A stretch of DNA of 52,787 bases, taken from positions 1 through 52,787 of the forward strand of contig JADCIX010000060.1 of NCBI GenBank assembly GCA_020247545.1. Direction: 5' to 3'. The stretch's first letter is position 1, and every line of letters begins with the position of its first letter. The notes beneath the pieces are model-generated. The model was not told where the DNA came from. It saw only the letters and a list, made by a program, of their open reading frames with translations, and did not search any database. The DNA comes from Rhodocyclaceae bacterium. GTDB lineage: Bacteria; Pseudomonadota; Gammaproteobacteria; Burkholderiales; Usitatibacteraceae. This document shows, piece after piece, positions 292 to 21,497 of this stretch. Position numbers and translations under genes: made by a program.

Positions 292-3200
292 CTAACGCGT
301 TTCGAGTCGGCTAAGAGTGCGATTGGTGTTCTGATCCCTGCCGACGATCACGCGTTCGTCAAATTTAAAGCGCAGCCGCAAGAACCCGCCGCGGCTGGTG
401 TAGTCCGATCCGCTGAGGTCGGCATCCTTGAAGCCTGCCCAGTTCACGCCGAAAGACAACCAGAGATTCTGCTGTAGAGCATAACCAACCTCAGCCCCTT
501 GCGCCCATTGGCGTGATCGACCACCGCTTGATTGTAAGACACTGGTCATCACACTAACATCCCACTTCTCAGTCAGGTCGTAGGTCAGACGACCACCGAG
601 CAAGGCGGCACGGTAGCCACCGAATGTATCGCTCTGCCACTTGGCCGCAATTCGACCGGTGGCCCACCACGCGCGAGTCGGATGGTAGTTTGCATGCAGA
701 GAAACGATATGCGCCCGCTCATTGATCTGCGGCGCAATCTCGGGGTTACGCTCAATCTTATACTCGTACTTGGATAACAGATCAAGTCGATTGTCATCGA
801 CTGGTCGGTAGGCAAAACCAATTTGGACACGGTCCTGCAAATGCGCGCCAGGCAGATTTTTCGCGTCGCTCCAAAGCAAGTAGTTACGCAACAGCAACGT
901 CCAATCATGATCAAGTTTCCGGGCAACGGTGAATGTCGATAACCATGAATCTTGCCCATCGGTTTCCGGCGTGAGCTGATTGTCGCCTGCAGTGCGATAT
1001 TCAAGTTTTGTTGAGGCTTTCCAAAGCGGATTAGCAGCGTATTCCAAACCACCGCTAATTGCGGTAGCGGTCTGACCGGCACCCGTGACGACCGTCAGGC
1101 GTTCAACACTGGTGGTTGCGCGCAGCCCTGCGGCCAGATCAAAACCGTTGCGTACGCCGGATGCAAGCTGCAAATCGCGTGCCTCCGCGCTTGCCTGATC
1201 AATGGCGTCACGCATGCGATACTCGGTAAAGAGCTGTCCACCCGGCATATAGCTCGTATCGACTCCAAACACAAACGCACGGCTCTTTTCGGCAGGATTC
1301 AACGCAAAGCTGGACGCAAGACCGCGTTGGCTCTCGTATCGGGCATAGAGCTTGCTGCGTTCCGAAAGCAGGTAGTCCGCACCAAGAGTCCAGCGGTTCT
1401 TTTCGGCATCATTCGTACCGCGCTCAACCTCCGCTCTTGCGCTTGCTCGCTCTGTCAGACGAAGGAGCGCTCGCACGAAGGCACTTTGACCGTCGAGATT
1501 GCTCCCAGTGTTGGACGCAGAGTTAGTTTCAAAACTACTACCTGGATTGACGACGAGGTTGCCAGTCACGGGGTTAACCGCGCCGCCGCCCGCACCAAAG
1601 AAGCCTCCTCCCGTGCCGCCGAGTCCGGTGGTGCTCAACACGGTGTTCGCTGCACCGGAGATTGCCCCCGACTCGCGGACCGACCGTAACCCGCCGCCAA
1701 GTTCGATCCCAGTACCGAGTTTCAAGCTAGCGCCTATTTCGCCGGCTTTGCGCTCGCTACCATTCACTTGATTTTCGGAACGGATCGCTTGACTGAACAC
1801 ACTGAGCACATCATTGACCTTAAACGTTGCACGTGCTGCGGCTTCCTTGCGTCCGCCATTGAGAGTCGCCGCCGCATTGTTGAACGTTGGATCAGATCTT
1901 CCGACCATGGCGCGAACTTCCAATTGCTCGTCCTTATGGCGAAGCTCTAACCGGGCCGCACCGCCCTCCACCTCGCCGCTGCGTGTCGCAAGCCCGGGAC
2001 GAGTCACCGCATTTACACCATCGATGGTGTTAACAACAGACTGGCTCCGGGCAACTTCTGCGACCAACATAGTCTTGTAATTGATACTCCATCCAACATT
2101 CGCGCTGCTCAAACGATAGGGGACCAGTGGATTCTTGTCTTCGACATAGCTACCCCCCACCGAAACCGAGGTGCCTAATTTAGCCTGTGCATCCACGCCA
2201 TACAGCCAATATTCCGCTCCCCCCTGATCAAACTCATAAGTCACACGCAACGATACCGGGTTGAAGTTTGAATCCAGCGCAGGCAAGGGCTGCCTCAACA
2301 AAATACGGCCTGAGAACGGTTCAAAGGTGTAGTCTGCAAGCCGATTAAGCAACGTCGTGCGCAGGATTACCGACGGCTGATTGCGGTCACGAACAATAAC
2401 CTCAACACGCTCACTATTTTCGAGTGCGGTATTGTTGGCGAGTGTGAAAGGTCCAGAGATACCCTGACCGCGGAACTCCTCAATCATCTGACGCAGGGTA
2501 TCCTTCGTCGCAAACAGATTCGCAACGACCGTGGGTGTTTCGTAGTGCCACTTTGCACCGGTCGTGGTTCGACTGTACTGCCCTAGGTCACTTACGCGTA
2601 GCGCCGCTGCATTGGCAGCCGAGAGCAGCTCGGCTGTCCCGTCAGCGGTTCTGAAATCTCCATACAGCAGGTAGCTCTTGTTCTTATCTACTCGAACGTA
2701 AAGCTTCTCGGCCGACCGCGCTTCGAATCCCCGCACGGCGCTATCACCGTAGATCGGATAGAACTCGTCCGGCTTAATGTCACGCAGCAGTCTTGCACGG
2801 GTTTCTTTGTCTGAGTCATAGGCCGCAGTTAGCAGGTAATCACCGCGGATTTTTCCCTTGAGAAACGCCGCAACGCGCAAATCGGCGCGACCACGGTCGC
2901 CATTGAACTCTCGAGAAAATCGTCTGATTTCTCGCTCAAAACCGTCATCGAAACGTGCCTGCTGTACAGATGACTGTGATAACCGCCTTACGCTGACCAC
3001 GCCCTCAATGAGACCGGCGGAAATCCACTCGCGTAATTCCGGCACATAAGTAACCACCCCGTTTGCCTCATGTTCGCCCGCCGTCACGCGGACCCGAACG
3101 TCTTGCGGTTCACTCGGCGCAATCAGTGTGAATGCTGCCGTCCCGTTTTCTACCTTGATCTGAATTCCCCGCGTCAGTCGGTCGAGATCGAGCCTCTGCG

Positions 3201-3621
3201 GGCCGCTCCCATCTGTTGCCGCACCCGGCAGCAACACGCTACCGCCGCTAACTTCAAGAGTTGCATAGGCGACCCCCATCAGCGGTAGTTTGCGCTTGTC
3301 AAACAGCCGGATATTGAACCGCGTGGCCCCCTGACCGTCGGCGACAAACGCATTGCGAAAGACTTCGATGACAATGCCACCGACCCGTGCGTTTTCTGCA
3401 AAATCCACAACGCCCAAACGGGTGCTGATCACCTGCGGCTGCGCGTCTGGCAAATTTGTTCCCGTGTCCGATAATGCGTTGACTGGCAAAGGGTCGAAGC
3501 GTGGTACCGCCCAAGCGGTATTGCCAGACAGCCATAACAAAAGGCCCAAACATGCAGACGCCGTCGGGACAATGCGGGCGGGTTCCGAACCGAGTCTATA
3601 CGGGTGGCGATTATTTTCCAT
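292..3621 (-). CDS. Predicted outer-membrane beta-barrel protein, partner of the giant upstream protein
   Basis: I place the start at the ATG ending at 3621, giving about 1109 residues. A longer in-frame reading to 3897 is possible, but its extra N-terminus is basic and unlike a secreted protein. From 3621 there is a good signal peptide: a hydrophobic stretch at about residues 19-33 and a likely cleavage after Ala38 (NTAWA). An Ig-like beta domain follows to about residue 190, ending near GVVTYVPELREW. The rest, about 900 residues, is alternating polar and hydrophobic strands rich in aromatic and Arg/Glu pairs, as in large outer-membrane barrels (for example GGFLRLRFKFDERV near the end). The start overlaps the stop of the preceding gene by 11 bases (ATGGAAAATAA), so translation is probably coupled. 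I do not recognise an exact family. No TonB box or OmpA-type peptidoglycan domain is evident. Export or surface display of its neighbour is inference. Confidence 0.75.
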   Translation of the reverse strand: MENNRHPYRLGSEPARIVPTASACLGLLLWLSGNTAWAVPRFDPLPVNALSDTGTNLPDAQPQVISTRLGVVDFAENARVGGIVIEVFRNAFVADGQGATRFNIRLFDKRKLPLMGVAYATLEVSGGSVLLPGAATDGSGPQRLDLDRLTRGIQIKVENGTAAFTLIAPSEPQDVRVRVTAGEHEANGVVTYVPELREWISAGLIEGVVSVRRLSQSSVQQARFDDGFEREIRRFSREFNGDRGRADLRVAAFLKGKIRGDYLLTAAYDSDKETRARLLRDIKPDEFYPIYGDSAVRGFEARSAEKLYVRVDKNKSYLLYGDFRTADGTAELLSAANAAALRVSDLGQYSRTTTGAKWHYETPTVVANLFATKDTLRQMIEEFRGQGISGPFTLANNTALENSERVEVIVRDRNQPSVILRTTLLNRLADYTFEPFSGRILLRQPLPALDSNFNPVSLRVTYEFDQGGAEYWLYGVDAQAKLGTSVSVGGSYVEDKNPLVPYRLSSANVGWSINYKTMLVAEVARSQSVVNTIDGVNAVTRPGLATRSGEVEGGAARLELRHKDEQLEVRAMVGRSDPTFNNAAATLNGGRKEAAARATFKVNDVLSVFSQAIRSENQVNGSERKAGEIGASLKLGTGIELGGGLRSVRESGAISGAANTVLSTTGLGGTGGGFFGAGGGAVNPVTGNLVVNPGSSFETNSASNTGSNLDGQSAFVRALLRLTERASARAEVERGTNDAEKNRWTLGADYLLSERSKLYARYESQRGLASSFALNPAEKSRAFVFGVDTSYMPGGQLFTEYRMRDAIDQASAEARDLQLASGVRNGFDLAAGLRATTSVERLTVVTGAGQTATAISGGLEYAANPLWKASTKLEYRTAGDNQLTPETDGQDSWLSTFTVARKLDHDWTLLLRNYLLWSDAKNLPGAHLQDRVQIGFAYRPVDDNRLDLLSKYEYKIERNPEIAPQINERAHIVSLHANYHPTRAWWATGRIAAKWQSDTFGGYRAALLGGRLTYDLTEKWDVSVMTSVLQSSGGRSRQWAQGAEVGYALQQNLWLSFGVNWAGFKDADLSGSDYTSRGGFLRLRFKFDERVIVGRDQNTNRTLSRLETR

Positions 3622-6600
3622 CGCGGCCTCGTGATGAATCGACAGGCGGTGGTTTTTCGGCCGGAGGCGGTGACGACCCCTCACCAGCATTGACTTGCGA
3701 ACGTACGGCGGGCTGATTCGCGGAGTCTGTGGCCTGCTTGGGGTTCGCCATCGACTTCGACTCAAACTTGAGCACCGTACCACCAGCCCGTTCATTTTCT
3801 GGAGTTGCCGACCCACCCTTTGCACGCCGCGCCTTGACTTGCTCAAGAACCGGATTCGAGCAACTACCCTCGGCAAAATCAGCGCGATGTAGCTCACCGG
3901 CCTTCAGGTCAACAAACAAGCTGCCAGCATCACCAACGTTACGGTTGCTGGTTGTTGTCAGACGCGACCCGATTGGTAGTGTCGTGTTGTCGACCTTCAG
4001 GACATGCGTTTGGGGCTTCAATCCGCAGTAGCTGTACTTACCTTCAATATCGGAAACGAGGAATGTGCCATCTTCAAAGTACAGACGCACCCCAGGAATA
4101 CCAAGCTCGTCCTTGTCCTGGACATGGTTGTTATTGCAGTCAACAAAAATTTTTCCTATGACACACGCATCTTTGGTGAACACTCCACCTGTGACGCGAA
4201 TACGATACTGCGCCACGTTCGAGGTGGTCTGCCCACTGCGAGCTTGGGCGCGGTTGATGCCGTCACCTTCGGCCGCACCCACCCCGATCCTGACGCGATA
4301 TGTGAATTGCAGTGTCCCACCGGCAGTCAGATTCGGCAGATTGAACGTGATCACCGAGCCTTCACCACCTTGTGGGTCGGGTAACACGGTTGTACCCAAC
4401 TGGAAAGTGCCACGGATGTAGCGGAAGCCGGCTGGGAGTCGATCCACCACTTGCAATCCCGATAGCGGCGGTCCTGCCCACTGGGAGACGCTTATGGTGT
4501 AGAGCACAGAGTCGCCGATTTCGCCAACCTGCCGGTCACCGATTTTCGAAATCGAAATCATTGGTGCCGCATTTGGGTCTAGCGGGATATGGTTATTGAA
4601 TACCTCGAAATGCCCACTGCCGCCCAACAACACAAAGTGGTAGGTAATTGATTGATTGCCCGTCGGCGGCGTCGGCTGCGGCTGCACATAGAAAATGCTA
4701 CCGACGCCAACCGGAGTCTGTAATGTCGGCGCGGCGGGAATTCGGGTCGACGGTGACTGATAGCCGCCAGGCGGCGCAACCCCCAGCCTGAAAAGACAAG
4801 ACCTCGGGGCATCGGCAGAAAGCAAGAACTTGTAGAACCCGTCGGGTCCAACCGCCATGCGCGGGTTACCAGCTGCGTCGTACTGACCATAACCTTCGTA
4901 GGCGATCACATGACGTTGGGGATCGTACCCTGCACATGCACCCTCGGGCTTCAGCGTGACGATGGCACCGCGAACCGGTAGACGGGTGGTTGAATCATAG
5001 ACCACCCCATTCGGTTCGATTGGCAGACTTTGCTCAGCGCACGTTACTTGGTTGGGGAAGGTACCAGGCGGCATCACGATATCTAGCGCCGATTGACGGT
5101 TACCCAGTTCGCTGCCCGTCTCGCTACCACCGCATGCTTGCCGAACACGACGCTCACCGTTGACTGGTCCGGCGAAAATGGCCCTGCCCTCGCTGTCACG
5201 GAACTGGATGCGATAGGCGCGACCCGGCATTAGGTTTTCCACAAGGTAACGACCATCGGTGCCAGTGCGCACCGTGGCGACAATGTTGTTGCCCCCCGGG
5301 AGCGTAGGGTCCAGCACCTCGACGATCCAATCTGGGAAGTCCTTGTCGAGCCCTGGGTCGTAAATGCGCCGCCCAAGAGACGTCAGTCCACCATCAAGCC
5401 ACACGCGCCCGCCAAGAGCCACCGGGAACTCGACGCGCGTTTCAACGATGCACGCGTTGTGTACTGGTGGATTTGCCTGCGCTGGACAAGTCGGCGCTTC
5501 GCGAACAATGGTACGGAGGTCCTGTTGGGTCACGACACGGAGCGGATCGCCAAAGGGATCGCTTTCGGCAGGTTCCGCACCGCCACGCACCAGCACGGCG
5601 TTTCGCAATGGAGAGAATGAACTCGCGCCTACTCCAACCTTTACCCGAACCGTGATTCTGTTCGGGTTGATGGCGTTAGGGGCGATGACAGCCGATGATC
5701 GGCATGTCAGAAACACTAAAGCATCGACGCTGCATGTCCATCCAGTACCCGTCGGAACACCTTCAATTTCGAATCGTTGCGGCACTGGTGTGAGCGGCAG
5801 GACATCGTAAACTACGTACTCGCCTTGCGATGAATCCACGCCCGCATTTCTAACCGCTATCTGGTACTCGTAACGACCGCCCTCGACAAACAGTGTGCTA
5901 CTCACAGTCTTGCTGACAACTAAATCAGGCGTTGCGGGTCTCTCACCAAAATTATTGTTGATCGAGTTCTGGCCTGCGGCCAACGCGATAGCGGAAATGA
6001 CCGACGGTAGCTCCGACAGCGCCGTTGCCGTACCGCCGCTACTCCCGGGTGTGGTAATGCCATTAGTCGTACCAAACGGCTGCGCCGGTTCCGTTAATCG
6101 ATAGATGCCCGGACGCAGATTAACAAAGCGGTAATTGCCAAGGGCGTCCGTCACTGTTGTTTCATTGACTGCATTGCCTAACTCGTCCGTCCCGCTCAAA
6201 ACAATCGTTACTCCGGCAATGCCGAGTTCTCCGCCATCCGGCACCCCGTTGTTGTTGGTGTCAACGTAGACACGACCCGAAATCGTTCCTCGCGCCAACT
6301 CACCAAAATTGTTGTTGATCGAGTTCTGGCCTGCGGCCAACGCGATGGCGGAAATGACCGACGGTAGCTCCGACAGCGCCGTTGCCGTACCGCCGCTACT
6401 CCCGGGTGTGGTAATGCCGTTAGTCGTACCAAATGGCTGCGCCGGTTCCGTTAATCGATAGATGCCCGGACGCAGAATAACAAAGCGGTAATTGCCAAGG
6501 GCGTCCGTCACCGTCGTCTCGTTAACCGCATTGCCCAGTTCGTCTGTCCCGCTCAATACGATCGTCACGCCGGCAATGCCGAGTTCTCCGCCATCCGGCA

Positions 6601-9600
6601 CCCCGTTGTTGTTGGTGTCAACGTAGACACGACCCGAAATCGTTCCTCGCGCCAACTCACCAAAATTGTTCCCGGTCGATCCCTGCGCCCGCGAAAGTGG
6701 AACGGCGGAAATCGACGAGGGGAGCACGGAAACTGCGGTTGCTTGGCCACCTGTGCTTCCCGGCGTCGTAATCCCATTCGACGTGCCTGGCGGCTGATTG
6801 GTCTGCGTGACGCGATATACGCCTGGAGACAGATTGATAAACCGATAACGTCCCGCCGCGTCGGTCGTTGTTGTTGCGGCGACTTCCTTCCCGTTCGTAT
6901 CAACCCCGGTAAGCACAATAGTCACGCCCGCAATACCGAGCTCACCTCCGTCTTGGAGACCGTTGTTGTTGGTATCGATATACACAACCCCGTCAATGAA
7001 ACTCACGGGCGGATTGGCAGCACAAGTAGGTGTTCCCGGTAGGTACGAAACAACGCCACTGACCGTCGGGTTGATCTGAAACAACACCCTCATTTCCGGT
7101 CGCAAGCCGTCTGCGATCTGGCTCCACTGCCCATCAACGAACTGCCAGCCTGGCCACGCCGTCGGGTTGCCGGCCGTGTCTACCTCTGTCCCCGGCCAGA
7201 GCAGAGAACCTGAATACGGTTGATTGGTCAGTATACGAACCACTTCGCCGTTGATTTTCTGCCAGGTAATCGTGAGAGGGCTGTCTAGCGGAAGACCGCG
7301 CGAACTGATCGAATAGTCAACGAACAAGGTATCACGTGTACACCGAGGAGTCACAGAGCCGAGCACGATCTCCTTTAGTACTTCGCCAAAGTTATAACCG
7401 GTGAAATTCTGGCCGGAATTCACCACGATTCCTGTTACGCTGTTAACACTCGGCGACCCTCCTCCGGAACCAACGTTAGTGGCACCATTGCCGTAGTCAG
7501 GCGGTTGAGTTTCGCTTACGTCGTAGGTGTCCGGAAAGAGATTGGAAAAAACATAATTGCCGCCCGCGTCCGTTGTCGTGGTAATCGCCAGCCCACTTGT
7601 TCCTGTAAGGGTGATGACCACCCCCGCCAATCCTGCTTCCGAAGGATTCCGTATGCCATCACCGTTGGCATCCACATAGACAGACCCCGCAATCGAACCC
7701 AACCGAAGTTCGCCGAAGTTATAGTCAATCGCCGTATCGGCGGGCCCCAGAACCAAACCCGTGAATTGGTCATTCACATTGCTGGTGCCACGCCTGACGC
7801 CGCCAACAGTACCAATCGACTCGGCACCATCGACATAATCAGCTGGTTGGGACACTTCGCGGATCGTATAGCCCGCTGGATTACTTGTCACTAATCCAAG
7901 GAAGCTATAAGCGCCTGTCGTATTGGTAAGCGTCGTTCGATCGACCGTTGCGCCACTCGAATCGATTCCAGTCAATCGAATAGTCACACCTGCTATACCC
8001 GGCTCGCCTATATCGCGCAAGCCGTTGCCATTCAAGTCTTCGTACACCGCGCCGGAAATAGACGTCGTCAGTTCGCCAAAATTGAAATTGATTCCAGTCT
8101 CATTTTCTCGGACAGTGATATTGAACGTATCCAACGGCGTGTTTGTTGCTGCGGTCGCAAAGCCAGTACCTAGATTGTTCGCACCTTGTGAAGCGAACGG
8201 CGGCTGCGTCTCGATGATCCGGTACGTACCAGGCCGGAGGTTGGCAAAGGTATATTGACCATTAACGTCAGTCGTAGTGGTTAAGGAGATGGCATTGCCG
8301 TCGATGTCGGTGCCGGTCAGGGTAATGGTCACCCCAGGTAGCGCGGGATCGATACCAACATCCCGAACGCCGTTGTTATTTGAATCTGCATAGACAAAGC
8401 CAGAGGCACTGGACGGTCGAAACTCGCCGAAGTCATACCCAGTTGCATTGGTGGCGACCGAAAAACGAATCCCGGTAATCGCATCATTTCCGACCACGTT
8501 CGTCGTGGCACCAATGAGTGGCGTCAAGTCAACACCGGCAAACGGGGTTAGCGTTCCAGCAGCTTGCCGACCATCAACAAATGCGCTCGGCTGTGTTTCG
8601 GTGAGCGTATAGCCCGCCGCGTTCGGCAGCTTCAGGCTACTAAATACATAGCTGCCGACGCTATCCGTCAATGCCGCCAATGAGATCGCCGTACCGTCGG
8701 CAGCCGTGCCGGATAGTGTCACTGTCACCCCAGCAATACCGGTTTCCCCTGCTTCACAGCGCCCATTGTTAATGGTGCCGCCACCAGCACCGTTATCAAT
8801 ACACACCCGGCCCGCAAGGCGCGATGGTCGCAGACCAAAGTTATTGCCCAGAGAGGTGCCACCGGAGCCTATCGCGATGCTATTCACTACGGGTGCGGTC
8901 GAGCCCCCGGCAACTGAGCCCGCCGACACGGTAGTGGTCGTCACCCCAGCACGATCGGTGAAGTTTGTCGAAAGCGACTGCGGCCCCTGAACGGCAGCCC
9001 CGGTGTTGGTATAGGCTGCGACCGGCCCCTCAGTAACGTTGTAAATGCCGGGCAACAGGTTTGCGAAGGTGTAATTGCCAGACGTATCGCTGGTTGCCGT
9101 CGCGGTTACCGTATTGCCGTTCAAATCGGTACCCGTCAGGGTGATAACAATTCCGGGCACACCCGTGGTCTCGCCAACATCGCGAATGGCATTGCCATTT
9201 TGGTCAAGGAACACGGCGCCGGAAATCTGCGCGACGCGCAATTCGCCGAAGCTGTTGTCCTGAGAGATCTGATTACTCCCTACCACCACACCTGTGATGC
9301 GATCCGTTGCGGCGTTCGTTGTGCCCGTTGAGACACCGCCAGCCGAGTAGCCGGTTGCGCCGGCAGCGTTGCTCGAGTTTGGGATCACATTCGCTGGTGG
9401 CGGCGGACCCGCACCGATTTGTCCGCGAATCTCTTTTCCATCAAAGTATCCTGCGGGCTGGGCGACCTGCTCGACGGTGTAGCCTGTGGTGTCCGACGGC
9501 GGCACGTTGAAAACATATTCGCCCGTCGTATCTGTGCCGGCCGTCTGGTTAACCGCTTGGCCAAAAATGTCGGTGCCGGTTATGCGGATGTTGACGCCGA

Positions 9601-12600
9601 CAATTGGTGCCTCACCCGCCTCGCGTTGACCATTGTTATTGTTATCTTCATACACGAATCCGCGCACGACGGCGGGTCGCAACTCGCCAAAATCAAAACC
9701 TGCTGCGTTGGTTGCGCGGGTGAAGCGGATACCGCTGATCGTATCCGTATTGGTTGCTGTAGATGCTGTTCCCGCGTTCGCACCTGCATCCGGTGGACCG
9801 GCCTGAATCAGCGTTAGCGTTCCGGGAGTTTGTTTGCCATCAAGCAAGCCAATTGGTTGTGTTTGGGTCAACGTGTAGCCGGTGGCATTCGGTAGCGGCA
9901 CATTCGCAAAGCTATACGCACCGGTTGCATCCGTTATCACACTACGATTAACAGCTGTCACGCCATCTGAAGCGAGTCCAGTTAGTGTGACTGTGACGTT
10001 ATTGACGCCCACCTCACCGACATCACACCTGCCATTGTTAGCATTGGCACCTGCGCCTTCGTCCAAACAAACACGACCACTAATCACACTGCCCAGTACG
10101 CCAAAGTTATTACCCTGCGAAGAACCGTTAGGGCCGATGGCAATAGTGTTCACCACCGGTGACGTGGTTCCGCCCGCACTAGAGCCGTTACCAACAGTGG
10201 TGGTCGAGCCACCGCTTCGATTTTGAAAATTCAGGCCAAGTGCGTTGGGGCCTTGAACCGCACTGCCAGTGTTATTGAAGTTTGTTGCAGCGCCCTGTGC
10301 GACTGCGTAAGTCCCCGGCAAAAGATCTGCGAATATGTAGTTCCCAGATGCATCGGTGGATACGGTGCGCGAGACCGCATTACCGTTGAGGTCAGTACCG
10401 GTGATGGTCATGACCACGCCGGCAACACCGACTGTCTCACTGACATCTTTGCTCGCGTTGTTGTTCTGGTCAAAATAAACCGTTCCACTGATGGACGCCG
10501 GCAACACTTCACCGAAGTTATTGTCGTGGTTGGTCTCCCCAGCAACAACAACGCCGGTGATGACATCAAACGTACCGACGGGTATGGCGGTCGTTCCAGG
10601 TGCCACTCCAGCTGCGGTGTAGTTGATAGCACCTGCGCTGTTACTGGAATTGGCGATTACGTTACCCACTGGCGGCTCACCCGCCGCAACTTGTCCGCGA
10701 ATCTCCTTTCCATCAAAAAACCCGGCTGGTTGTGAAACCTGTCGAACCGTGTATCCAGTTGGGTCTGACGGCGCTACCGTAAAGGTGTATTGGCCATTGA
10801 CGTCGGTCGTCGCACTGAGGGATACCGCGTTACCGATGATGTCGGTGCCGACCAACTGCATCTGCGCACCGGCGATACCTGGTTCACCAGCCTCCTTCTG
10901 CCCGTTATTGTTGCGGTCATGATAAACATATCCACTGATCGTAGCCGGTGGAATTTCTGCAAAGTCAAAATTAATCGCATTTGAGCCAGCCGTGAGCACC
11001 AATGCTGGAATGGTGCTTGAGACCTGTCCCGTATTAAGAGCAGCGCCTACCGTACCCCCGTTGCCACTTCCAGGAGTGCCGTTAGTAATACCATTTATGA
11101 ACCCGGCCGGTTGCGACTGAACAAGTGTGTAGCCGCTCGAATTTGATGGCGGGAGATTGGCAAATATATAGTCGCCGCGTGTTGCGCCAATGGCGTTGTT
11201 GGTCGTTGTGGTACGACTCACCGCGTTACCGTAAAGATCGGTGCCCGTCAGCGTGATGGTGACGTTCCCAATCCCTTCATCTTGGGTAGAGGTAGTGCCA
11301 TCCTGCAGGCCATTATTGTTACGGTCGCGGAATACGCGCCCGCTGATAGATGCCGACTGAATTCTCGAGTTCGACGACGCCGAATCGTTGCCGCTAACAA
11401 GATCAATCGAAAACGCTTCATCGGTGACCGTGTTGCGTCCTGGCGAAACCGTGGCGGTATTGGGGAGATTGGTCGGCGTATAAGGTCCTGCGAAAAAACC
11501 CTCTTTGGCTCTCGCGAATATCGTGACCGTCACCGTGTTGTTGACGTCGGCACTACCCGGGAACGCCGCTGACCCGCCTGTCGCGTTGGCAATACAAGAC
11601 ACGGTTTGAATCTGCCCCACCACGGTGATCGATGATGGAGTCGCAGTACAGCTGACATTTTGCGCGGTGAGTCCTGAACCCGTCACAAACGAACCCACGC
11701 TGATCGACGGCGCATTTGACCCAGTCGCGATGAACTCAAAGTTAGCAGGCAAGACGTCGGCGACGCGCATCTGCGGCGTTGCAGCTGGGCCGAGATTTTT
11801 CAACACGAGGTCGTAACGAATCGGTTGATTGATATCCGCAGATTGGGCAGTCACCGTTGTTTTGCTAATCGTGAGATCCGTCTTGGGAAACACCACATCG
11901 TTTACCGACGCTAAGTTGTTTCCGGCAACTACGGGGATGGGGCTGCACGCACCAGAACTTTCGAAATTCACGGACTCCTCGCCGCACACGCGTGCGGAGT
12001 TACCGAACGAAACCGGGGTAATCGCGATACCGCTCATGTTCAAAACCAGCTCAAAATTCACTTCTCTCGCCGCGTCAAGAAAATTGCCGGTACTCGTGTC
12101 GTCTGGGGCGACCCCCGCCAGTACACAGATGACATCTGCGTTCGCCGCAGCTTGCGCACAGCTCACTGAAGCGTTCTTCGACGTGTCGATGGTGTAACCC
12201 GCCTCCGCCGCTACTGCATTTACGTTCTCGACTGATGCCAGCGACAGTGTGAAGCCGGCTGGGACAGACAAGACGTCCGTCACGCGGACCTTTTCCGTTC
12301 GTGACGGCCCATTGTTCTGAATACGGAAGCGATAGCGAAGTGGATCGCCGATCCCAAATGCGGTTTGCCCCCCCGGTAACACCCGCGTTTTACGTTGCTG
12401 TAAATCGAATCGCGGTACCTTAATGTCGAAGGTGACCGCTCGGGAATTGTTGCTGGTTGAACTGGCGTCGTTACATGACGTCGAAACCAAACCGTTGGTC
12501 ACAGTTTCAGTTTTGAATTCGCAGTTGCTTGCCGTGTTTAGTGATACCACAGCGGTATTGGTTTCACCTGGATAGGCAACGTCGTTAGGTCCAGTTGGCA

Positions 12601-15175
12601 GTACACCGACTTTTCGCGGGCGAACCGTGATCAAAATCGAACGGACAGCGTATCGATTGATTGTGGTTAACGTCGTACATGAAAGCGCCCCGGTCACGAG
12701 GTTGGACGCCGAGCAGTCCATCGTTCCACCGACAGCACCCGCAATCGATAAGACCTGATATTTCGCCGGATCAATGTTGTCGGTGATGGTCATTGCACCT
12801 GACACATTGTTGGGGCCGAGATTTTGCGCTGAGACTGTAAATTCAAGCAGCTGGCCAATACGGGGGGACGTAGCGGTATTCGTAGGATTAAGCGTCTTGG
12901 TCGTCAGCGCGATATCGACGCGTGGCAGCACTGTTGCGGTTGCAACACTCGAGAGTTGCCCGCCGCTGCTCGCGGTCAGGATCGCATCGGGTGACGTGAG
13001 TGTGCCGGTATTGGAAAGCGTACCGCCGTCAAACGGGCGGTCAACCCTGAACGAGACTTCAATCGTGGTACCCGGAGCCACGTTAGTGAAGGCGCACGAC
13101 AGCGAACCAGAACTTCCAGCCGGGAGATTCGGACATGTACCTGCGGCGGCACCCGCCGTCACGCTGGTTGTCACAGAAATTGCAGGCGTCACATAACTGG
13201 GAGCCGGCGCGCCGGGTGACGTTACATTGAGCAATCCCGGAATATTGTCGGTGAGCAATAGTGTCGGAATAACAGCCTGCGTTGGATTGGTCCCGGTGGT
13301 TGGTGTCGTGATGACCATACGCCAGTAAACGCTGTTGTCTGCTCCACCAATGGTCGATGTCGGTCCGTAGGAGGCGCCATCGACCGAGGTAGCCTTGATA
13401 ATGCTCGCCTGCGCCAGCCCAGTCGTTACTGGCGTTCCGATGACCGATTTGCTATCACAGTCATTCCCGCTGACGCTATCCGCCGGTAGCGGGCCAGTAA
13501 GCCCCGACTGAATCATCCCAGTTGCCCCGGTACAGACGGTATTGGTTAATGTGACCGGCGTGATAATTGCGGCGCGAACGCGCGTCGTAAGTGTCACTGC
13601 TGGTTCATTGGTCGCCACGTTCAACGTTCCGGCAGCGACTTTGGTGCAGGTCACGCGGCGCAAGCCGACCGAAGGCGAGTTATCAACAGCACTGCATGTC
13701 CAACCAGCACTCACGCTCACATACTCTTCGTCCATCGACATAGTGTCGACGAAGAAGAGCGGGTTCGCACCCGCGCCGACGGTGTAGACAGCCGGGGAAA
13801 TTCCTTCATTGCGCAACACGATGGTGTTGACGATGTTGCTGCCAGCCGCTAGTGGGCCACCCGACTTTGTCTTGGTTGCACGCAGGTCCGCGAACGGCAC
13901 AGCGACGGCATAAGGAATGAGCAACATGTTATTGGCAGGATTGGTATCGCCAAACCCGACCGGCGGCGAGACCTCGACGCCGAAATTCCCGCCACCCGCA
14001 GTTGCGGGCATGGTGAGTGGAATGTTGAACGTTTGCGTCGCCCCCACGGCGACGGCTCCCGTGGTGCAAGTGATTACCGTACCCGTAACGCCATTGACCG
14101 TGCCGGCACCGCTATTTACGCACCCGGCAGGCAGAGTCCCGATGGTGAAGCCGACCGGTATCGCGGCGCGCACCATGCCACCGGTCGGTGCGTTGGTTGG
14201 GCCAGCGTTGTTATAGGCAACCACCAAGGTTTGCACGGAATCCGTCTGCACACTGCCAGATGGAAAAATCGAGCCGTTGGGACGCAAATCACTACCCACT
14301 TCAACCACATAACCAAAGTTGACGAGGTTATTGGCGAGATTCAGATCAATATAGTCGATACCACCCGAGGCGATGTTGGCTGCATTGTTAAAGGTCCCAA
14401 CGCTATTGGCAACACCGGTGATATCGATGCTACCCAGCGCACTGGCCAACACAGGCCCTGAAATCGTACAGGTCACCGTGCGAGAAGTATTCGCCGCTGA
14501 AGCACCATTGCATGCCACCGCAGCGCCGTTGCTGGCGGTAATCGAGCTCACACTAAAGTCAGTAGCGGTGCCTGGAAGGTTGTCGGTTACCACAACTGTT
14601 GCACCAATCGGGATATCGTCCGCCACCCCATTAATCGGGTTTATGGTTGGCGTTAATCGGAATGTGGCCGACTGGCCGGCGATCGGATTGCCCGCGGGTG
14701 CTGCTTTCGTTTTCGCAACTTGCAGGTCGCCGGCAGTGCGTACGTTGCTGGTACTGGTCGCGTTCGAGCCACCAGTTGCCGTTGCAGTAAGGACCACGCT
14801 ACCGGTGGATGCCCCACGAACTTGAAAATTGATCGTCCCCGTGTCACCAAGAGCACCAGGCGGAATGGCACATTGCACCGCTGGTCCGGCAATCGCAGTG
14901 CAAGGCGCGACAACTGTCGGCGGATTGATAGATAGGGTTGCGGGAATAGGGACAGTGATTGTAGCGGCCGCTACGTTCGTCCGAGTGTAGTCAAGCCCGA
15001 CCGTTGCGTCCTGGCCTCGACCGATGTTGGCCTGCACATTAACCGCGTTGACCGTCACCTGTGCGCATGTGATGTTAGGTACTGCAAGTAACGCCGCTGC
15101 CATCGTCAGCGCGAACACAGATCGACTAACAAGCCAGCCCCTACTGACGACGGCGTCAATTCCACAAATTTTCAT
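3611..15175 (-). CDS. Giant secreted multidomain protein with DUF11 and SdrD/Cna-B-like repeats
   Basis: This gene encodes 3854 residues from the ATG ending at 15175. A TTG 57 bases upstream is in frame but has no ribosome-binding site, while AGGGG lies 12 bases before the chosen ATG. A signal peptide runs to about residue 38 (NITCA, then Gln). Residues ~40-1270 hold about eight DUF11-like beta domains, with motifs such as DLTISKT, NNGPS and DVLPANFEF. Residues ~1274-3080 hold thirteen SdrD/Cna-B-like modules, each opening SGxVYxDxNNNGxxDxGExG, a pattern expected to bind calcium, and ending NNFGE. A unique Cys-containing insert of ~125 residues lies between modules 10 and 11. The C-terminal part has more DUF11-like domains, two carboxypeptidase-regulatory-like folds and a last module (CVIGKIFVDCNNN) ending LKAGELHRADFAEG, then a disordered tail. 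There is no LPXTG anchor. It is probably a surface adhesin or matrix protein working with the downstream barrel; that role is inference. Confidence 0.85.
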   Translation of the reverse strand: MKICGIDAVVSRGWLVSRSVFALTMAAALLAVPNITCAQVTVNAVNVQANIGRGQDATVGLDYTRTNVAAATITVPIPATLSINPPTVVAPCTAIAGPAVQCAIPPGALGDTGTINFQVRGASTGSVVLTATATGGSNATSTSNVRTAGDLQVAKTKAAPAGNPIAGQSATFRLTPTINPINGVADDIPIGATVVVTDNLPGTATDFSVSSITASNGAAVACNGASAANTSRTVTCTISGPVLASALGSIDITGVANSVGTFNNAANIASGGIDYIDLNLANNLVNFGYVVEVGSDLRPNGSIFPSGSVQTDSVQTLVVAYNNAGPTNAPTGGMVRAAIPVGFTIGTLPAGCVNSGAGTVNGVTGTVITCTTGAVAVGATQTFNIPLTMPATAGGGNFGVEVSPPVGFGDTNPANNMLLIPYAVAVPFADLRATKTKSGGPLAAGSNIVNTIVLRNEGISPAVYTVGAGANPLFFVDTMSMDEEYVSVSAGWTCSAVDNSPSVGLRRVTCTKVAAGTLNVATNEPAVTLTTRVRAAIITPVTLTNTVCTGATGMIQSGLTGPLPADSVSGNDCDSKSVIGTPVTTGLAQASIIKATSVDGASYGPTSTIGGADNSVYWRMVITTPTTGTNPTQAVIPTLLLTDNIPGLLNVTSPGAPAPSYVTPAISVTTSVTAGAAAGTCPNLPAGSSGSLSCAFTNVAPGTTIEVSFRVDRPFDGGTLSNTGTLTSPDAILTASSGGQLSSVATATVLPRVDIALTTKTLNPTNTATSPRIGQLLEFTVSAQNLGPNNVSGAMTITDNIDPAKYQVLSIAGAVGGTMDCSASNLVTGALSCTTLTTINRYAVRSILITVRPRKVGVLPTGPNDVAYPGETNTAVVSLNTASNCEFKTETVTNGLVSTSCNDASSTSNNSRAVTFDIKVPRFDLQQRKTRVLPGGQTAFGIGDPLRYRFRIQNNGPSRTEKVRVTDVLSVPAGFTLSLASVENVNAVAAEAGYTIDTSKNASVSCAQAAANADVICVLAGVAPDDTSTGNFLDAAREVNFELVLNMSGIAITPVSFGNSARVCGEESVNFESSGACSPIPVVAGNNLASVNDVVFPKTDLTISKTTVTAQSADINQPIRYDLVLKNLGPAATPQMRVADVLPANFEFIATGSNAPSISVGSFVTGSGLTAQNVSCTATPSSITVVGQIQTVSCIANATGGSAAFPGSADVNNTVTVTIFARAKEGFFAGPYTPTNLPNTATVSPGRNTVTDEAFSIDLVSGNDSASSNSRIQSASISGRVFRDRNNNGLQDGTTSTQDEGIGNVTITLTGTDLYGNAVSRTTTTNNAIGATRGDYIFANLPPSNSSGYTLVQSQPAGFINGITNGTPGSGNGGTVGAALNTGQVSSTIPALVLTAGSNAINFDFAEIPPATISGYVYHDRNNNGQKEAGEPGIAGAQMQLVGTDIIGNAVSLSATTDVNGQYTFTVAPSDPTGYTVRQVSQPAGFFDGKEIRGQVAAGEPPVGNVIANSSNSAGAINYTAAGVAPGTTAIPVGTFDVITGVVVAGETNHDNNFGEVLPASISGTVYFDQNNNASKDVSETVGVAGVVMTITGTDLNGNAVSRTVSTDASGNYIFADLLPGTYAVAQGAATNFNNTGSAVQGPNALGLNFQNRSGGSTTTVGNGSSAGGTTSPVVNTIAIGPNGSSQGNNFGVLGSVISGRVCLDEGAGANANNGRCDVGEVGVNNVTVTLTGLASDGVTAVNRSVITDATGAYSFANVPLPNATGYTLTQTQPIGLLDGKQTPGTLTLIQAGPPDAGANAGTASTATNTDTISGIRFTRATNAAGFDFGELRPAVVRGFVYEDNNNNGQREAGEAPIVGVNIRITGTDIFGQAVNQTAGTDTTGEYVFNVPPSDTTGYTVEQVAQPAGYFDGKEIRGQIGAGPPPPANVIPNSSNAAGATGYSAGGVSTGTTNAATDRITGVVVGSNQISQDNSFGELRVAQISGAVFLDQNGNAIRDVGETTGVPGIVITLTGTDLNGNTVTATATSDTSGNYTFANLLPGIYNVTEGPVAAYTNTGAAVQGPQSLSTNFTDRAGVTTTTVSAGSVAGGSTAPVVNSIAIGSGGTSLGNNFGLRPSRLAGRVCIDNGAGGGTINNGRCEAGETGIAGVTVTLSGTAADGTAISLAALTDSVGSYVFSSLKLPNAAGYTLTETQPSAFVDGRQAAGTLTPFAGVDLTPLIGATTNVVGNDAITGIRFSVATNATGYDFGEFRPSSASGFVYADSNNNGVRDVGIDPALPGVTITLTGTDIDGNAISLTTTTDVNGQYTFANLRPGTYRIIETQPPFASQGANNLGTGFATAATNTPLDTFNITVRENETGINFNFGELTTSISGAVYEDLNGNGLRDIGEPGIAGVTIRLTGIDSSGATVDRTTLTNTTGAYSFLGLVTSNPAGYTIREVSQPADYVDGAESIGTVGGVRRGTSNVNDQFTGLVLGPADTAIDYNFGELRLGSIAGSVYVDANGDGIRNPSEAGLAGVVITLTGTSGLAITTTTDAGGNYVFSNLFPDTYDVSETQPPDYGNGATNVGSGGGSPSVNSVTGIVVNSGQNFTGYNFGEVLKEIVLGSVTPRCTRDTLFVDYSISSRGLPLDSPLTITWQKINGEVVRILTNQPYSGSLLWPGTEVDTAGNPTAWPGWQFVDGQWSQIADGLRPEMRVLFQINPTVSGVVSYLPGTPTCAANPPVSFIDGVVYIDTNNNGLQDGGELGIAGVTIVLTGVDTNGKEVAATTTTDAAGRYRFINLSPGVYRVTQTNQPPGTSNGITTPGSTGGQATAVSVLPSSISAVPLSRAQGSTGNNFGELARGTISGRVYVDTNNNGVPDGGELGIAGVTIVLSGTDELGNAVNETTVTDALGNYRFVILRPGIYRLTEPAQPFGTTNGITTPGSSGGTATALSELPSVISAIALAAGQNSINNNFGELARGTISGRVYVDTNNNGVPDGGELGIAGVTIVLSGTDELGNAVNETTVTDALGNYRFVNLRPGIYRLTEPAQPFGTTNGITTPGSSGGTATALSELPSVISAIALAAGQNSINNNFGERPATPDLVVSKTVSSTLFVEGGRYEYQIAVRNAGVDSSQGEYVVYDVLPLTPVPQRFEIEGVPTGTGWTCSVDALVFLTCRSSAVIAPNAINPNRITVRVKVGVGASSFSPLRNAVLVRGGAEPAESDPFGDPLRVVTQQDLRTIVREAPTCPAQANPPVHNACIVETRVEFPVALGGRVWLDGGLTSLGRRIYDPGLDKDFPDWIVEVLDPTLPGGNNIVATVRTGTDGRYLVENLMPGRAYRIQFRDSEGRAIFAGPVNGERRVRQACGGSETGSELGNRQSALDIVMPPGTFPNQVTCAEQSLPIEPNGVVYDSTTRLPVRGAIVTLKPEGACAGYDPQRHVIAYEGYGQYDAAGNPRMAVGPDGFYKFLLSADAPRSCLFRLGVAPPGGYQSPSTRIPAAPTLQTPVGVGSIFYVQPQPTPPTGNQSITYHFVLLGGSGHFEVFNNHIPLDPNAAPMISISKIGDRQVGEIGDSVLYTISVSQWAGPPLSGLQVVDRLPAGFRYIRGTFQLGTTVLPDPQGGEGSVITFNLPNLTAGGTLQFTYRVRIGVGAAEGDGINRAQARSGQTTSNVAQYRIRVTGGVFTKDACVIGKIFVDCNNNHVQDKDELGIPGVRLYFEDGTFLVSDIEGKYSYCGLKPQTHVLKVDNTTLPIGSRLTTTSNRNVGDAGSLFVDLKAGELHRADFAEGSCSNPVLEQVKARRAKGGSATPENERAGGTVLKFESKSMANPKQATDSANQPAVRSQVNAGEGSSPPPAEKPPPVDSSRGRDGK
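5943..6656 (-). repeat. Two tandem near-identical 357-bp units inside the giant gene
   Basis: The units are 5943-6299 and 6300-6656, and each encodes a complete 119-residue SdrD-like module (modules 13 and 12 in protein order). By eye they differ at about 19 bases. About 14 of these fall in a 58-base block (6155-6212 against 6512-6569) and are silent. Outside the block only five differ, one of which changes the protein (Ile against Asn in RFV(I/N)LRPG). A third, diverged module starts at 6657. Confidence 0.9.
8416..10945 (-). repeat. Three-module super-repeat, two copies of about 1.26 kb
   Basis: Modules 2-3-4 (10945 to 9676) and modules 5-6-7 (9675 to 8416) of the giant protein correspond one to one. 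Modules 2 and 5 share FDGKEIRGQ and NVI(A/P)NSSN. Modules 3 and 6 share NNTG or TNTG then AVQGP, and AGG(T/S)T(S/A)PVVN. Modules 4 and 7 carry the variant opening GRVC(L/I)D with NNGRC in place of NNNG. The copies are diverged at DNA level, so this is an old duplication of a three-module block. Boundaries are approximate. Confidence 0.8.
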
Positions 15176-15284
15176 ACAGAAAGGCAACCCCTGCGTCCAA
15201 AAAATAGGCGCTTCAATTTTCTTGTGATCCAAACGTACGCTTAAGTTGAGTACGCATCTAAGAGCTTGGACTTTCCAAATATTC

Positions 15285-15409
15285 TCGCTGAAAACCGTCG
15301 CTGAAAATCGCGGAACATTGCCAAGACGTGATAACTATCTATGAGATCTATGAGAAAAGCGCTTGTGCCGCATTAATTAGACACCTCTCGTACAGCGGAT
15401 GTTAATTAG
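15285..15409. repeat. Cluster of short direct repeats upstream of the giant gene
   Basis: The AT-richer stretch before the giant gene holds three repeat pairs. A 13-base tandem pair (TCGCTGAAAACCG then TCGCTGAAAATCG) lies at 15285-15310. A perfect 9-base tandem pair (ATCTATGAG twice) lies at 15337-15354. An 8-base pair TTAATTAG lies at 15373-15380 and 15402-15409. It sits 110-235 bases before the ATG, where a promoter and regulator sites are expected. I could not pick a convincing -35/-10 pair. The rest of 15176-15600 shows no gene. Confidence 0.55.
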
Positions 15410-15599
15410 GCAAATACTAGCTATTCATCGAGCTATCTCGTTTCGTTCACAAGAGGGGGAGCGATTCAGGAAAGAATGTTTACAGCATCTGCTAATTTCC
15501 AACGGTCGCATCTTCCCTTGGCGTTTCCCGCCTAGGATGCAACGCAGTCAATTGCTAGTTTTCTCGGCAATCTCGTCGGGCTATGATGGTGAGATTGGC

Positions 15600-16475
15600 C
15601 GTGTGTAGCGGTTGCAAAAATAGGGTTCACCGTTCCGGCATTTATTAATCCAACCAATTCCAGCGCGTCCGCATTGATGATCAAAAAACACTTTGATGTA
15701 TTCAGCACGAGTCCCTCCATGCGTCCGATAGCGCCAATGGAAGGCGCGCTGCCTCTTCAAACTGTCGAACCAGTTATGCGTCGGCGCATGACCCCTGCAA
15801 TTACCCTAATGACGCTTGCTTGATGCCGCCTTCCTATCTGCGATAAACGCTTGGCCGTCATAGCTTCAATACTGGTTGCCGTGATCGCCATGATGAATCA
15901 TCCCAGGCTTTGGCTTGCGTTTGAAGCGCACCATGCGAATTGCATTTCGCGCCAGCTTCTTGGTCAGTAGCGGGTGCATCGCATCACCGACAATCATTCG
16001 GCTATCCAAATCCATCACCACCTCCAGACACAACCAACCACCAGCGGTCGGAATCTAGCTAATGTCGGTCGTCCACAACTAATCCGGCGCGGTCGTCTGA
16101 AATTGGCGCTTGAGTACATTCTGGGCTATCGGAACAAATGGTGCGCCGGGTTTTTTGTGGCGCGGTAGCGGCGTTTATGCCTGGCATGGATACCATCGGC
16201 CGGCATCAGCTTACGAACTCACTTCTTGCTCACCGGCAGGCCACCGCGCCTTGATTTCTCGGGCCATCTACAGCGAACCAAAGGCCACATCAACTTGGCA
16301 TGGGTAGCGCGAATAACGGCCCCCAACCGTGACATGGTGCCCCAAAACTTGGCTGGTTGTCGACCCTGCGCGCCGCGCTACTACATTACCACTCTCACTC
16401 ACCTTCAGTACGTCGCACATGGCGCTGCGACCCTCCGAGGCAGCGGTTGTACGCCGACATTTCACGCGTAGCAAC
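15600..16475 (-). pseudogene. Decayed IS3-family transposase (OrfB, integrase core)
   Basis: No open frame remains, but the reverse strand carries the IS3 OrfB plan in order across shifting frames. Near 16390-16440 there is an N-terminal MCDVLKVSESG match to the usual MCRVLxVSxSGYY. Near 16080-16200 come RKLMPADGIHARHKRRYRAT and, in another frame, PIAQNVLKRQFQTTAPD. At 16057-16080 is the integrase opening LWTTDIS followed by a stop. Then come IPTAGGWLCLEVVMDLDSR and, at 15870-15897, HHGDHGNQY holding the second catalytic Asp, again followed by a stop. Near 15660-15775 is NWFDSLKRQRAF with YIKVFFDHQ, the region around the catalytic Glu. Several stops and frameshifts mean it is inactive. OrfA is not visible: the epimerase gene starts where it should be. 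Ends are approximate and I could not find terminal inverted repeats. Confidence 0.8.
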
Positions 16476-16519
16476 ATGCCGCTCAAAGAATTCCCCCAAG
16501 CATTAGGTAAAGTACGGCA

Positions 16520-17849: not shown

Positions 17850-18722
17850 TTAAGCATCTTCCGTGCGCCGGTCAGCAATCACCTCTTTTGCGCGTTTTAG
17901 TCGTTTAGCTAACGCAGGTCCGCGCGCCACCGCAACCCCCACCGACAGCACATCAAGCAACACCAAATGCACCATGCGAGACGTCATCGGCGCATAAACA
18001 TCGAGATCTTCACGAACATCCGCAAACAATACTACCGTCGCTAAGCGCGCTAGGGGTGAGCCGCTTGCCGTGATGGCAATCACGGATGCCCCAGCGTCCC
18101 GAGCGATTTCCGCGCTGCGAATCAGTTCGCGGGTGCGGCCGGTGCCGGAGATGGCTACCACCACATCTTGTTTGCCAAGCAGCGATGCCGCCATCGCGTG
18201 GATGTGAGGATCGGAGTATGCGACCGCTGGCACCCCTAACCGAAAAAATTTGTGTTGGGCGTCCAAGGCAACGATCCCGGAATTACCCAAGCCATAAAAC
18301 TCAATTCGGTTCGCTTCCGCGAGTAGTTTTGTTGCCCGTGTAAGCGCGTGCGGATCAAGGTGGTTTCGCACACTGACTAAGGCAGCGATGCCGCGATCAA
18401 ACACCTTAGCACCCACCTCGGCCATCGAGTCTTGCATTCCCACATCATGGTGAACGAACGGCACTCCGAGCGCGAGGCTTTGTGCGAGACGCAACTTGAA
18501 ATCCCGATATCCGTTGAAGCCGACCGCCACACAGAACCTCGCCACCGTCGGCTGGCTGACACCACACTTGGCTGCGATGTCAGGGAACGACAAACTGATT
18601 ACCAAATTAGGATGGCGCAGTACAAACCTGCCCACCAATTTCTCTGAAGGTCGCAGCGTGTCGATCAACGCCTCAATACGATCCAACAGTGTAGTTGACG
18701 CAACTGGCGCTTTTGGCGGCAT
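17850..18722 (-). CDS. hexR: HexR, RpiR-family regulator of central sugar metabolism
   Basis: The 290-residue protein has the RpiR-family plan. An N-terminal helix-turn-helix spans about residues 15-90 (SFPDIAAKCGVSQPTVARFC). A SIS sugar-phosphate-binding domain spans about 125-260 (FYGLGNSGIVALDAQHKFFRLG and VVVAISGTGRTREL). HexR proteins sense 2-keto-3-deoxy-6-phosphogluconate and repress edd, zwf and related genes until it accumulates. The identification rests on the fold plus its position, divergent from edd-eda-zwf. Upstream, one palindrome overlaps its own probable -35 box and another overlaps the edd promoter, so autoregulation is likely. No strong ribosome-binding site precedes the ATG. 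Confidence 0.92.
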   Translation of the reverse strand: MPPKAPVASTTLLDRIEALIDTLRPSEKLVGRFVLRHPNLVISLSFPDIAAKCGVSQPTVARFCVAVGFNGYRDFKLRLAQSLALGVPFVHHDVGMQDSMAEVGAKVFDRGIAALVSVRNHLDPHALTRATKLLAEANRIEFYGLGNSGIVALDAQHKFFRLGVPAVAYSDPHIHAMAASLLGKQDVVVAISGTGRTRELIRSAEIARDAGASVIAITASGSPLARLATVVLFADVREDLDVYAPMTSRMVHLVLLDVLSVGVAVARGPALAKRLKRAKEVIADRRTEDA

Positions 18723-18901: not shown

Positions 18902-18949
18902 TTCGCTTGTTTCCATCGTCAGCCATTCCAATTGGTTCGGAGTTATGGC

Positions 18950-20797: not shown

Positions 20798-20828
20798 CCC
20801 GCAGCGTCACCAATCGGGAGACAATCGC

Positions 20829-21497
20829 TTGACCCTTGCCTCGCCACACATCCGCGATATCCTTGCAGCAAGCCCGGTGATGCCTGTGATCGTACTGGAT
20901 CGCGTGGAAGATGCCGCGCCACTTGCTCGCGCTTTGGTTACAGGCGGTATCCGTGTTCTTGAAGTCACAATGCGTAGCCCGGCCGCGCTTGAATCTGTCC
21001 GCGCAATTCGACACCAGGTGCCGGAGGCGATTGTAGGTGTGGGTACCATCGTCACCGTCGCGGACTTCGATGCGGCGGTTGCAGCAGGTGCGGCTTTCGG
21101 CGTGAGTCCCGGCAGCAGTGATCACCTGTTGGCACATGTTGCGCAGCAGCAACTGCCGTTTCTGCCTGGTTGTATGACCCCTTCAGACTTGATGCGTGCC
21201 ATGGAAGCCGGGTTTGATGCGGTAAAACTGTTCCCTGCAAAGCAGGCCGGTGGTGTTGAGATGCTCAAAGCCCTCGGCGGCCCGTTCCCTAGAATTGCAT
21301 TTTGCCCAACTGGTGGCATCGACGCACTCTCCGCGCCTGACTACTTGAGGTTGCCCAATGTGGCCTGCGTTGGCGGATCGTGGCTTGCCCCAGCCAATCT
21401 CGTCAACAGTGGCGACTGGGAAGCAATTCGTCTAAGGGCTGTTGCCGCTTCTGCGTTGCGAGCAGTTGCCACCGCGTCTGGCAAGACATCACGGTAG
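20829..21497 (+). CDS. eda: KDPG aldolase
   Basis: The enzyme splits 2-keto-3-deoxy-6-phosphogluconate into pyruvate and glyceraldehyde-3-phosphate. I start it at the TTG at 20829, giving 222 residues, because GGGAGA (20816-20821) lies 7 bases upstream. An upstream in-frame ATG at 20754 would overlap edd and add 25 unlikely residues. With the TTG start the key residues fall at Glu45, Arg49, Thr73 and the Schiff-base Lys133 (AVKLFPA). To my knowledge these are the same numbers as in E. coli Eda, which supports the choice. The phosphate-binding CPTGGI motif is at 159-164. The gap from edd is 31 bases. Eda can also act as a 4-hydroxy-2-oxoglutarate aldolase. Confidence 0.96.
   Translation: MTLASPHIRDILAASPVMPVIVLDRVEDAAPLARALVTGGIRVLEVTMRSPAALESVRAIRHQVPEAIVGVGTIVTVADFDAAVAAGAAFGVSPGSSDHLLAHVAQQQLPFLPGCMTPSDLMRAMEAGFDAVKLFPAKQAGGVEMLKALGGPFPRIAFCPTGGIDALSAPDYLRLPNVACVGGSWLAPANLVNSGDWEAIRLRAVAASALRAVATASGKTSR

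Follow-up and report, generated by a model that had tools for sequence, protein, structure and literature searches.

How might a Gram-negative bacterium hold an enormous fibrous protein at its surface? The question is raised by a contig of a Rhodocyclaceae bacterium (family Usitatibacteraceae; NCBI GenBank assembly GCA_020247545.1, contig JADCIX010000060.1), whose whole length of 52,787 nucleotides was analysed and is called the window below. Near its start, two overlapping genes encode a giant secreted protein and a large protein predicted to form a transmembrane beta-barrel, which we call the giant and the barrel protein (Table 1). The two look like the halves of a little-known machine that holds a giant fibre at the cell surface. 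On the evidence of sequence comparison their coupling is close to certain. We lean, with some reserve, towards a single outer-membrane display unit, in which the giant's conserved C-terminal module (CTM) would be the base of the fibre and the barrel protein an usher-like, plugged pore of about 38 strands.

An initial annotation, made from the letters alone, had described a giant of 3854 residues with a signal peptide, DUF11 domains, thirteen SdrD-like modules and no LPXTG motif, and the open reading frame (ORF), Pfam and an iterated module hidden Markov model (HMM) seeded from the giant's own sequence all agree with it. The module HMM places 13 strong SdrD_B-like modules at residues 1298-3079 (independent E value at most 1.5e-28) and a weaker fourteenth at residues 3293-3365; Pfam finds SdrD_B (PF17210) in 15 stretches (E 3.1e-168) and DUF11 in 7 (E 8.1e-28). 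The DUF11 domains are concentrated in the first third, with more DUF11 or Cna-B-like domains C-terminal of the SdrD_B modules, and the six DUF11 matches found across the bacterium's own genome all lie within the giant. The final modules of the stalk are nearly identical to one another, and it is within this run that the giant of a 97% sister genome (G008) differs, with 13 module matches against 14 in the window. Cysteines number 42 and are often closely paired. A very long chain with repeated stalk domains is a trait of fibrillar adhesins, although at sequence level the Pfam scan showed no adhesive family in the giant, and its NCBIfam SdrD match, at 243 of 2500 bits, stays under the cut-off. 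No LPXTG occurs anywhere in the 3854 residues, and anchoring by that motif is rejected.

The overlap of 11 bases was likewise borne out: the giant's stop codon (3611-3613) lies within the opening bases of the barrel gene. Two other features named initially, the giant's conserved C-terminal module and the N-terminal immunoglobulin (Ig)-like domain of the barrel protein, are real. For the barrel protein, Pfam gave no match above cut-off (the best, DUF2490 at E 3.5e-4, falls below it), NCBIfam gave none, and a single-sequence search of the PDB returned nothing better than E 0.17. A profile of the barrel matches the porin OmpT over 125 columns (E 1.1e-4), and in a profile search the Ig-like domain weakly matches the invasin 1cwv (E 0.028).

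To judge from relatives, the gene pair is not due to chance, because its two members are conserved together well beyond the genus. The barrel was found in 20 of 41 genomes searched, the window's own included, and in most retrieved relatives it lies in one ORF (1720 to 2565 residues when complete) behind a CTM-like segment that matches giant residues ~3386-3813 at 35-41% identity. Within the genus the other retrieved copies are fused and those of the window and its sister split; one genome (G040) has both kinds. In a class-wide set of 274 genomes the barrel profile matches 41 genomes and the CTM profile 54, weak matches to ordinary SdrD_B modules included. The resulting table has one row for each of 53 barrel places and 80 CTM rows, with secondary pieces and some weak repeat rows omitted. 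At 30 of the barrel places the CTM stands in a frame of the same length, at 18 it lies upstream within 6 kb in another frame, and at 5 there is none; "fused" here means equal frame length, and a place with one in-frame TGA (G061) is scored as split. Among the five, a partial CTM is seen in G193 at the end of its contig, G254 begins at such an end, G078:C417 is open on either side and G101 matches in the Ig part only, at 35 bits, which leaves G068 as the clear exception: a 624-residue protein with the Ig-like part and the barrel's second half and without a CTM (L167, G068:C90, 3689-5560), a decayed or reduced form. From the other side, 27 CTM matches reach 65 bits or more: 25 have a linked barrel, and two run off their contigs. 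Unlinked matches of at least 40 bits number nine, those two among them; the remaining seven, at 42-52 bits, are presumably fragments or ordinary SdrD_B modules.

The best 80 of 284 relatives from named genomes, classified by CTM and barrel HMMs, comprise 33 fused loci, 31 with the giant ahead of the barrel, 9 in reverse order (Lysobacter, Lautropia and kin) and 7 without a CTM. In all seven the contig breaks off on the relevant side, and in three of them (L060, L083, L095) another ORF begins downstream and runs off the contig. The pair occurs in named genera including Janthinobacterium, Collimonas, Lysobacter and, as Sphaerotilus natans, Sphaerotilus; the giants of relatives range from ~1200 to more than 6000 residues, and in 39 distinct split forms the CTM ends 19-101 residues ahead of the giant's stop, whichever the gene order. 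A tblastn search gave barrel matches in 25 plasmid records, of which 7 were examined, four of their giants being partial. An Acinetobacter haemolyticus plasmid has the fused form with an OmpA family gene directly after it; in Eleftheria, Croceibacterium, Devosia, Loktanella, Sulfitobacter and Roseivivax the giant lies just upstream of the barrel gene, in Devosia with one small gene between them. With a longer model these six giants show the CTM near the C-terminus at 76-181 bits (in Croceibacterium 76.8 bits plus a second piece of 23.0), all six partners match the barrel model, and the linkage persists at ~23-28% barrel identity. Annotations in the plasmid relatives include "DUF11 domain-containing protein", "OmpA family protein", "TonB-dependent receptor" (on Devosia and on another distant relative) and "hypothetical protein". 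The initial idea that the two genes are one system is thus upheld by natural fusions, at 33 of 80 named loci, and by near-constant linkage, with a CTM just upstream at 48 of 53 barrel places.

Fused chains also bear on the possibility that the barrel is a membrane foot only, with the giant reaching the surface by another route, such as type II secretion, before docking. Type II secretion genes do lie in the same window (36342-47291), and fused forms would anchor a fibre all the same. However, those genes are more than 20 kb from the pair, and the fused chains place the fibre N-terminal to the barrel, so that any other route would need to carry across a passenger joined to an integral membrane protein; we consider this explanation unlikely.

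In a tree of 83 barrels, made by a quick method and rooted at the midpoint, 37 fused rows fall on one side of a branch with support 100 and the window falls among the split rows; split and fused forms are therefore old lineages. The idea that a fused gene split recently inside the genus is rejected, as this same branch parts fused from split. The nine reverse-order rows are likewise separated, and two split rows (L032, L089) adjoin the fused side. An extra Ig-like domain precedes the barrel in 48 of 49 fused proteins and in 1 of 52 others (counts that include loci present twice), and the sole non-fused bearer, the contig-cut L111, groups with the fused rows. Patterns picked after inspection of the tails separate the forms too. 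A TDSANQ-like motif behind the CTM marks 31 of the 40 distinct split giants and none of 40 fused; an LPASG-like motif marks the linker in 32 of 40 fused and none of 40 split. Shuffled-sequence means were 0.01 and 0.28, respectively. Split CTMs have conserved cysteines, which the fused consensus lacks.

A third component accompanies the pair in many relatives. All four downstream proteins that were scanned belong to the OmpA family (PF00691), with an N-terminal region that appears helical by eye. Where a named locus has 1500 bases or more after the barrel, ORFs were counted that match a model made from proteins of this kind and start between 500 bases before and 300 bases after the barrel stop. 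Such an OmpA-type ORF follows at 49 of 73: 26 of 28 with the giant first, 4 of 9 with the barrel first, 14 of 29 among the fused and 5 of 7 lacking a CTM. The barrel protein of Eleftheria terrae (L225:8366-12580) itself contains the OmpA domain, at residues 114-209, N-terminal to the barrel. The Croceibacterium giant has one behind its CTM, at 1947-2012; it is the only match among five distant giants, OmpA not being recognised at the C-termini of the other four. By sequence, each of the three possible pairs of giant, barrel and OmpA exists as a fusion; two of these pairs come from a single record apiece. OmpA-type domains bind peptidoglycan, and for this reason the giant's CTM end and the barrel's N-terminal side are probably both periplasmic. 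The barrel had initially been proposed as the giant's anchor. As a coupled partner it stands, but the anchor is now probably barrel plus peptidoglycan, since OmpA genes next to the barrel and OmpA domains in one barrel protein and one giant suggest a periplasmic CTM. No OmpA gene adjoins the pair in the 291 bases that remain of the window, nor in 602 bases in the sister (L051); the best match to an OmpA partner in the bacterium's own genome is a 211-residue frame on another contig, at 40% identity and not shown to belong.

For the barrel protein, AlphaFold2 predicts the Ig-like domain and then a long run of barrel strands, which gives the barrel expected initially a predicted size: 38 strands were counted in both models, by manual assignment and leaving out a short strand at 235-239. 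Six strands, assigned in the same way, precede an inserted plug domain in both models, and the first and last strands fall within structural alignments to closed porins. The model has no long helix before the barrel (residues 1-77 are of very low confidence). The C-terminus, GGFLRLRFKF, resembles what we take to be the signal of the barrel assembly machinery (BAM). Foldseek matched Deinococcus SlpA among other barrels; SprA was not among the PDB fold matches listed, an absence that does not exclude it.

In ushers the plug also lies between strands 6 and 7, and barrel profiles were compared by HHalign with 13 ushers from relatives. (Alignment A3 has 83 rows and A4, the fused set, 35, incomplete or X-bearing rows being omitted; A5 has 47 of 78 CTM segments.) The whole barrel scored 12.5% with a 17-row profile; the profiles of 83 and 117 rows reached 70.8% and 88.2%, and both of these alignments start at the plug's GPF/Y. 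The plug region alone gave 23-45% against ushers and at most 0.4% against controls, and the short stretch GPF/Y..L...V.RD is common to plug domain and ushers. LptD reached at most 3.0%, and reversed and shuffled controls stayed below 2%. TonB receptors scored 7.7%, 25.5%, 77.7% and 80.4% against the barrel family, residues 196-480 11.1% against ushers, and A4 13.1%, located on the CTM with the plug not involved; GD..T at the end of strand 5 aligns with the usher GDT at a loose setting only, and the Pfam Usher model (PF00577) has no match at E 1 or better in a scan of both proteins. For the plug domain, the profiles lean slightly towards ushers rather than two other barrel families, and we treat the profile values as a lead towards distant kinship, not as proof, with a recount telling slightly against the display unit.

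In that display unit the giant would be a fibre of Ig/Cna-B-type beads, presumably adhesive, and the barrel protein an outer-membrane pore, usher-like but larger, closed by its small plug. Both have signal peptides, and Sec would carry them to the periplasm, where BAM would insert the barrel, whose C-terminal end resembles its signal. The CTM would remain in the periplasm at the barrel mouth, meeting the barrel's N-terminal side, and the beaded part would leave outwards through the wide plugged barrel, its base keeping the fibre attached; many relatives have an OmpA-type protein or domain that would tie the assembly to peptidoglycan. The initial annotation named the Ig-like domain as a possible docking site for the CTM. 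Fibre base and barrel are a single polypeptide in many relatives and here would be supplied by two overlapping genes. Ushers let pilus subunits through, and by analogy a folded Ig bead could fit through a barrel as wide as this one. More tentatively, and with rather less confidence than we place in the unit itself, we suggest a widespread, unnamed machine in which a single-chain barrel of ~38 strands passes folded Ig beads and the last module is a peptidoglycan-tied periplasmic stopper, usher-derived or convergent, with fibre, barrel and peptidoglycan binder exchangeable.

A barrel with an even strand number has its N-terminal side in the periplasm, and this fits a periplasmic tether like OmpM/SlpA, in which giant, barrel and OmpA-type protein would link outer membrane and peptidoglycan and the giant would not be displayed. 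It is also favoured by the OmpA-type genes that many relatives have next to the barrel, by the OmpA fusions to one giant and one barrel, and by SlpA among the Foldseek barrels. Yet giants of ~1200 to more than 6000 residues far exceed what the periplasm needs, module number differs between close relatives, and the available parts of two papers describe DUF11 and SdrD_B as domains that form the stalks of adhesins on the cell surface (PMC12617251, PMC9210967); we doubt this arrangement as much as the passive foot. That the barrel is an unrelated channel merely travelling with adhesin genes finds little support beyond the lone half-barrel of G068 and is very improbable, given that 33 of 80 loci are fused, that the genes occur in either order and that linkage is kept at ~23-28% identity in six split plasmid loci.

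For the proposed display unit, a conserved base module and a matching barrel are now concrete in named genera. If true, the strand count would lie above the 36 of SprA (PMC9581022) and equal the largest Deinococcus predictions (PMC9388160), as far as the available text of these papers goes, and export through a 38-stranded pore would merit a class of its own. Among the literature matches listed, at the level of titles and abstracts, no published description of the giant-barrel pair was found.

Table 1. Features of the giant-barrel locus in the window, and accessory C-termini in relatives.
Feature	Position	Strand	Basis
Giant secreted protein, 3854 aa	3611..15175	-	ATG at 15175; ORF, Pfam, module HMM
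Giant, signal peptide (residues ~1-38)	15062..15175	-	judged by eye from sequence
Giant, N-terminal region with DUF11 domains	11370..15060	-	Pfam
Giant, PF01345 matches above cut-off (n=4)	13928-14245, 12620-12883, 12173-12361, 11519-11878	-	Pfam
Giant, stalk of 13 SdrD_B-like modules (residues 1298-3079)	5939..11284	-	module HMM
Giant, long C-terminal module common to giant and fused relatives (residues ~3386-3813)	3737..5020	-	sequence matches
Giant, core of CTM	3818..4198	-	HMM, 224 bits
Giant, tail motif ATDSANQPAV behind CTM	3704..3733	-	motif found in split forms only
Overlap of giant and barrel genes, 11 bases	3611..3621	-	sequence
Barrel protein, 1109 aa	292..3621	-	ATG at 3621
Barrel protein, signal peptide (residues ~1-38)	3508..3621	-	judged by eye
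Barrel protein, N-terminal Ig-like domain (residues ~80-193)	3043..3384	-	AlphaFold2
Barrel protein, predicted transmembrane barrel, ~38 strands (residues 199-1088)	358..3027	-	AlphaFold2
Barrel protein, predicted plug-like beta domain between strands 6 and 7 (residues ~365-445)	2287..2529	-	AlphaFold2, profiles
Accessory C-termini ending in DUF11	L107:18844-19293, L107:6307-6756, L113:19977-20426, L126:6141-6590, L120:19132-19581, L091:5372-5821, L092:5458-5907		

Around the pair, ~1.3 kb upstream of the giant (15233-16519) has short ORFs only and no obvious gene; this gene-poor stretch and the sister's 602 bases behind the barrel would fit a horizontal arrival of the pair. An Entner-Doudoroff-type set follows at 18932-23045 (dehydratase, 2-keto-3-deoxy-6-phosphogluconate aldolase, glucose-6-phosphate dehydrogenase), with an RpiR-type regulator beside it on the opposite strand (17850-18722). 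The type II secretion genes at 36342-47291 are C, D, E, F and K by Pfam, with a gene for a DUF4397 protein between C and D. The bacterium's own genome also has an ordinary usher (G000:C22:23955-25310, a frame of 853 residues), and a classical chaperone-usher route may, by its sequence, exist beside the giant-barrel system. Of 8 C-termini of accessory proteins beside the fused form, 7 match DUF11, two of them weakly (E 0.0025 and 0.02), and each of the 7 stops inside its last DUF11, the match ending between positions 84 and 96 of the 114-position profile. The domain ends as if without its last strand, and donor-strand pairing of the kind known from pilus subunits can be imagined.

Several known systems resemble the pair in part. 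The giant shares SdrD_B modules with SdrD of Staphylococcus aureus, one of the microbial surface components recognizing adhesive matrix molecules (MSCRAMM), but lacks the LPXTG that anchors the latter to the wall. Two-partner secretion (TPS) and autotransporters (type V) likewise join a secreted giant to a barrel, in two genes or fused with an N-terminal passenger, but their barrels have 16 and 12 strands, far fewer than predicted here, and the Pfam scan of both proteins showed no TPS domain on the giant, no POTRA on the barrel protein and no autotransporter barrel. Nor did it show an SLH domain in either, and membership in type V, the type 11 secretion system (T11SS)/DUF560, the TonB receptors or the SLH proteins is rejected for want of Pfam or NCBIfam support. 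SprA, the type IX translocon, is also a very wide single-chain barrel, of 36 strands (PMC9581022); in the text available, type IX secretion is said to be Bacteroidetes-specific (PMC7463736), and searches of Pfam, NCBIfam and the PDB, profile search included, gave no sequence match between SprA and the pair. The fibrillar adhesin of Acinetobacter silvestris is another Gram-negative case, with DUF11 repeats on an OmpA-like anchor and DUF11 (CLIPPER) described as an isopeptide-forming stalk domain in the available part of the paper (PMC12617251); there, however, OmpA is on the same chain, and the word "barrel" is absent from the main text. Very large barrels and a link between outer membrane and peptidoglycan recur in Deinococcus and in the SlpA/OmpM connectors, compared here by description: the accessible text of one paper predicts three Deinococcus outer-membrane proteins with 38 strands, giving no function for them, and SlpA with 30 strands, a coiled coil and SLH domains (PMC9388160), where our barrel protein has an Ig-like domain before the barrel instead. 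Two further papers (PMC12282271, PMC3206015) concern, in what was available of them, other systems. Similar in plan are the ushers (FimD, PapC; PF00577), whose barrels carry a small beta plug and export Ig-type subunits. According to the available text of PMC11459180, they pass folded pilus subunits and the FimD barrel has 24 strands, whereas the barrel here, without a Pfam Usher match, is predicted to have about 38, and its presumed substrate is a single giant chain.
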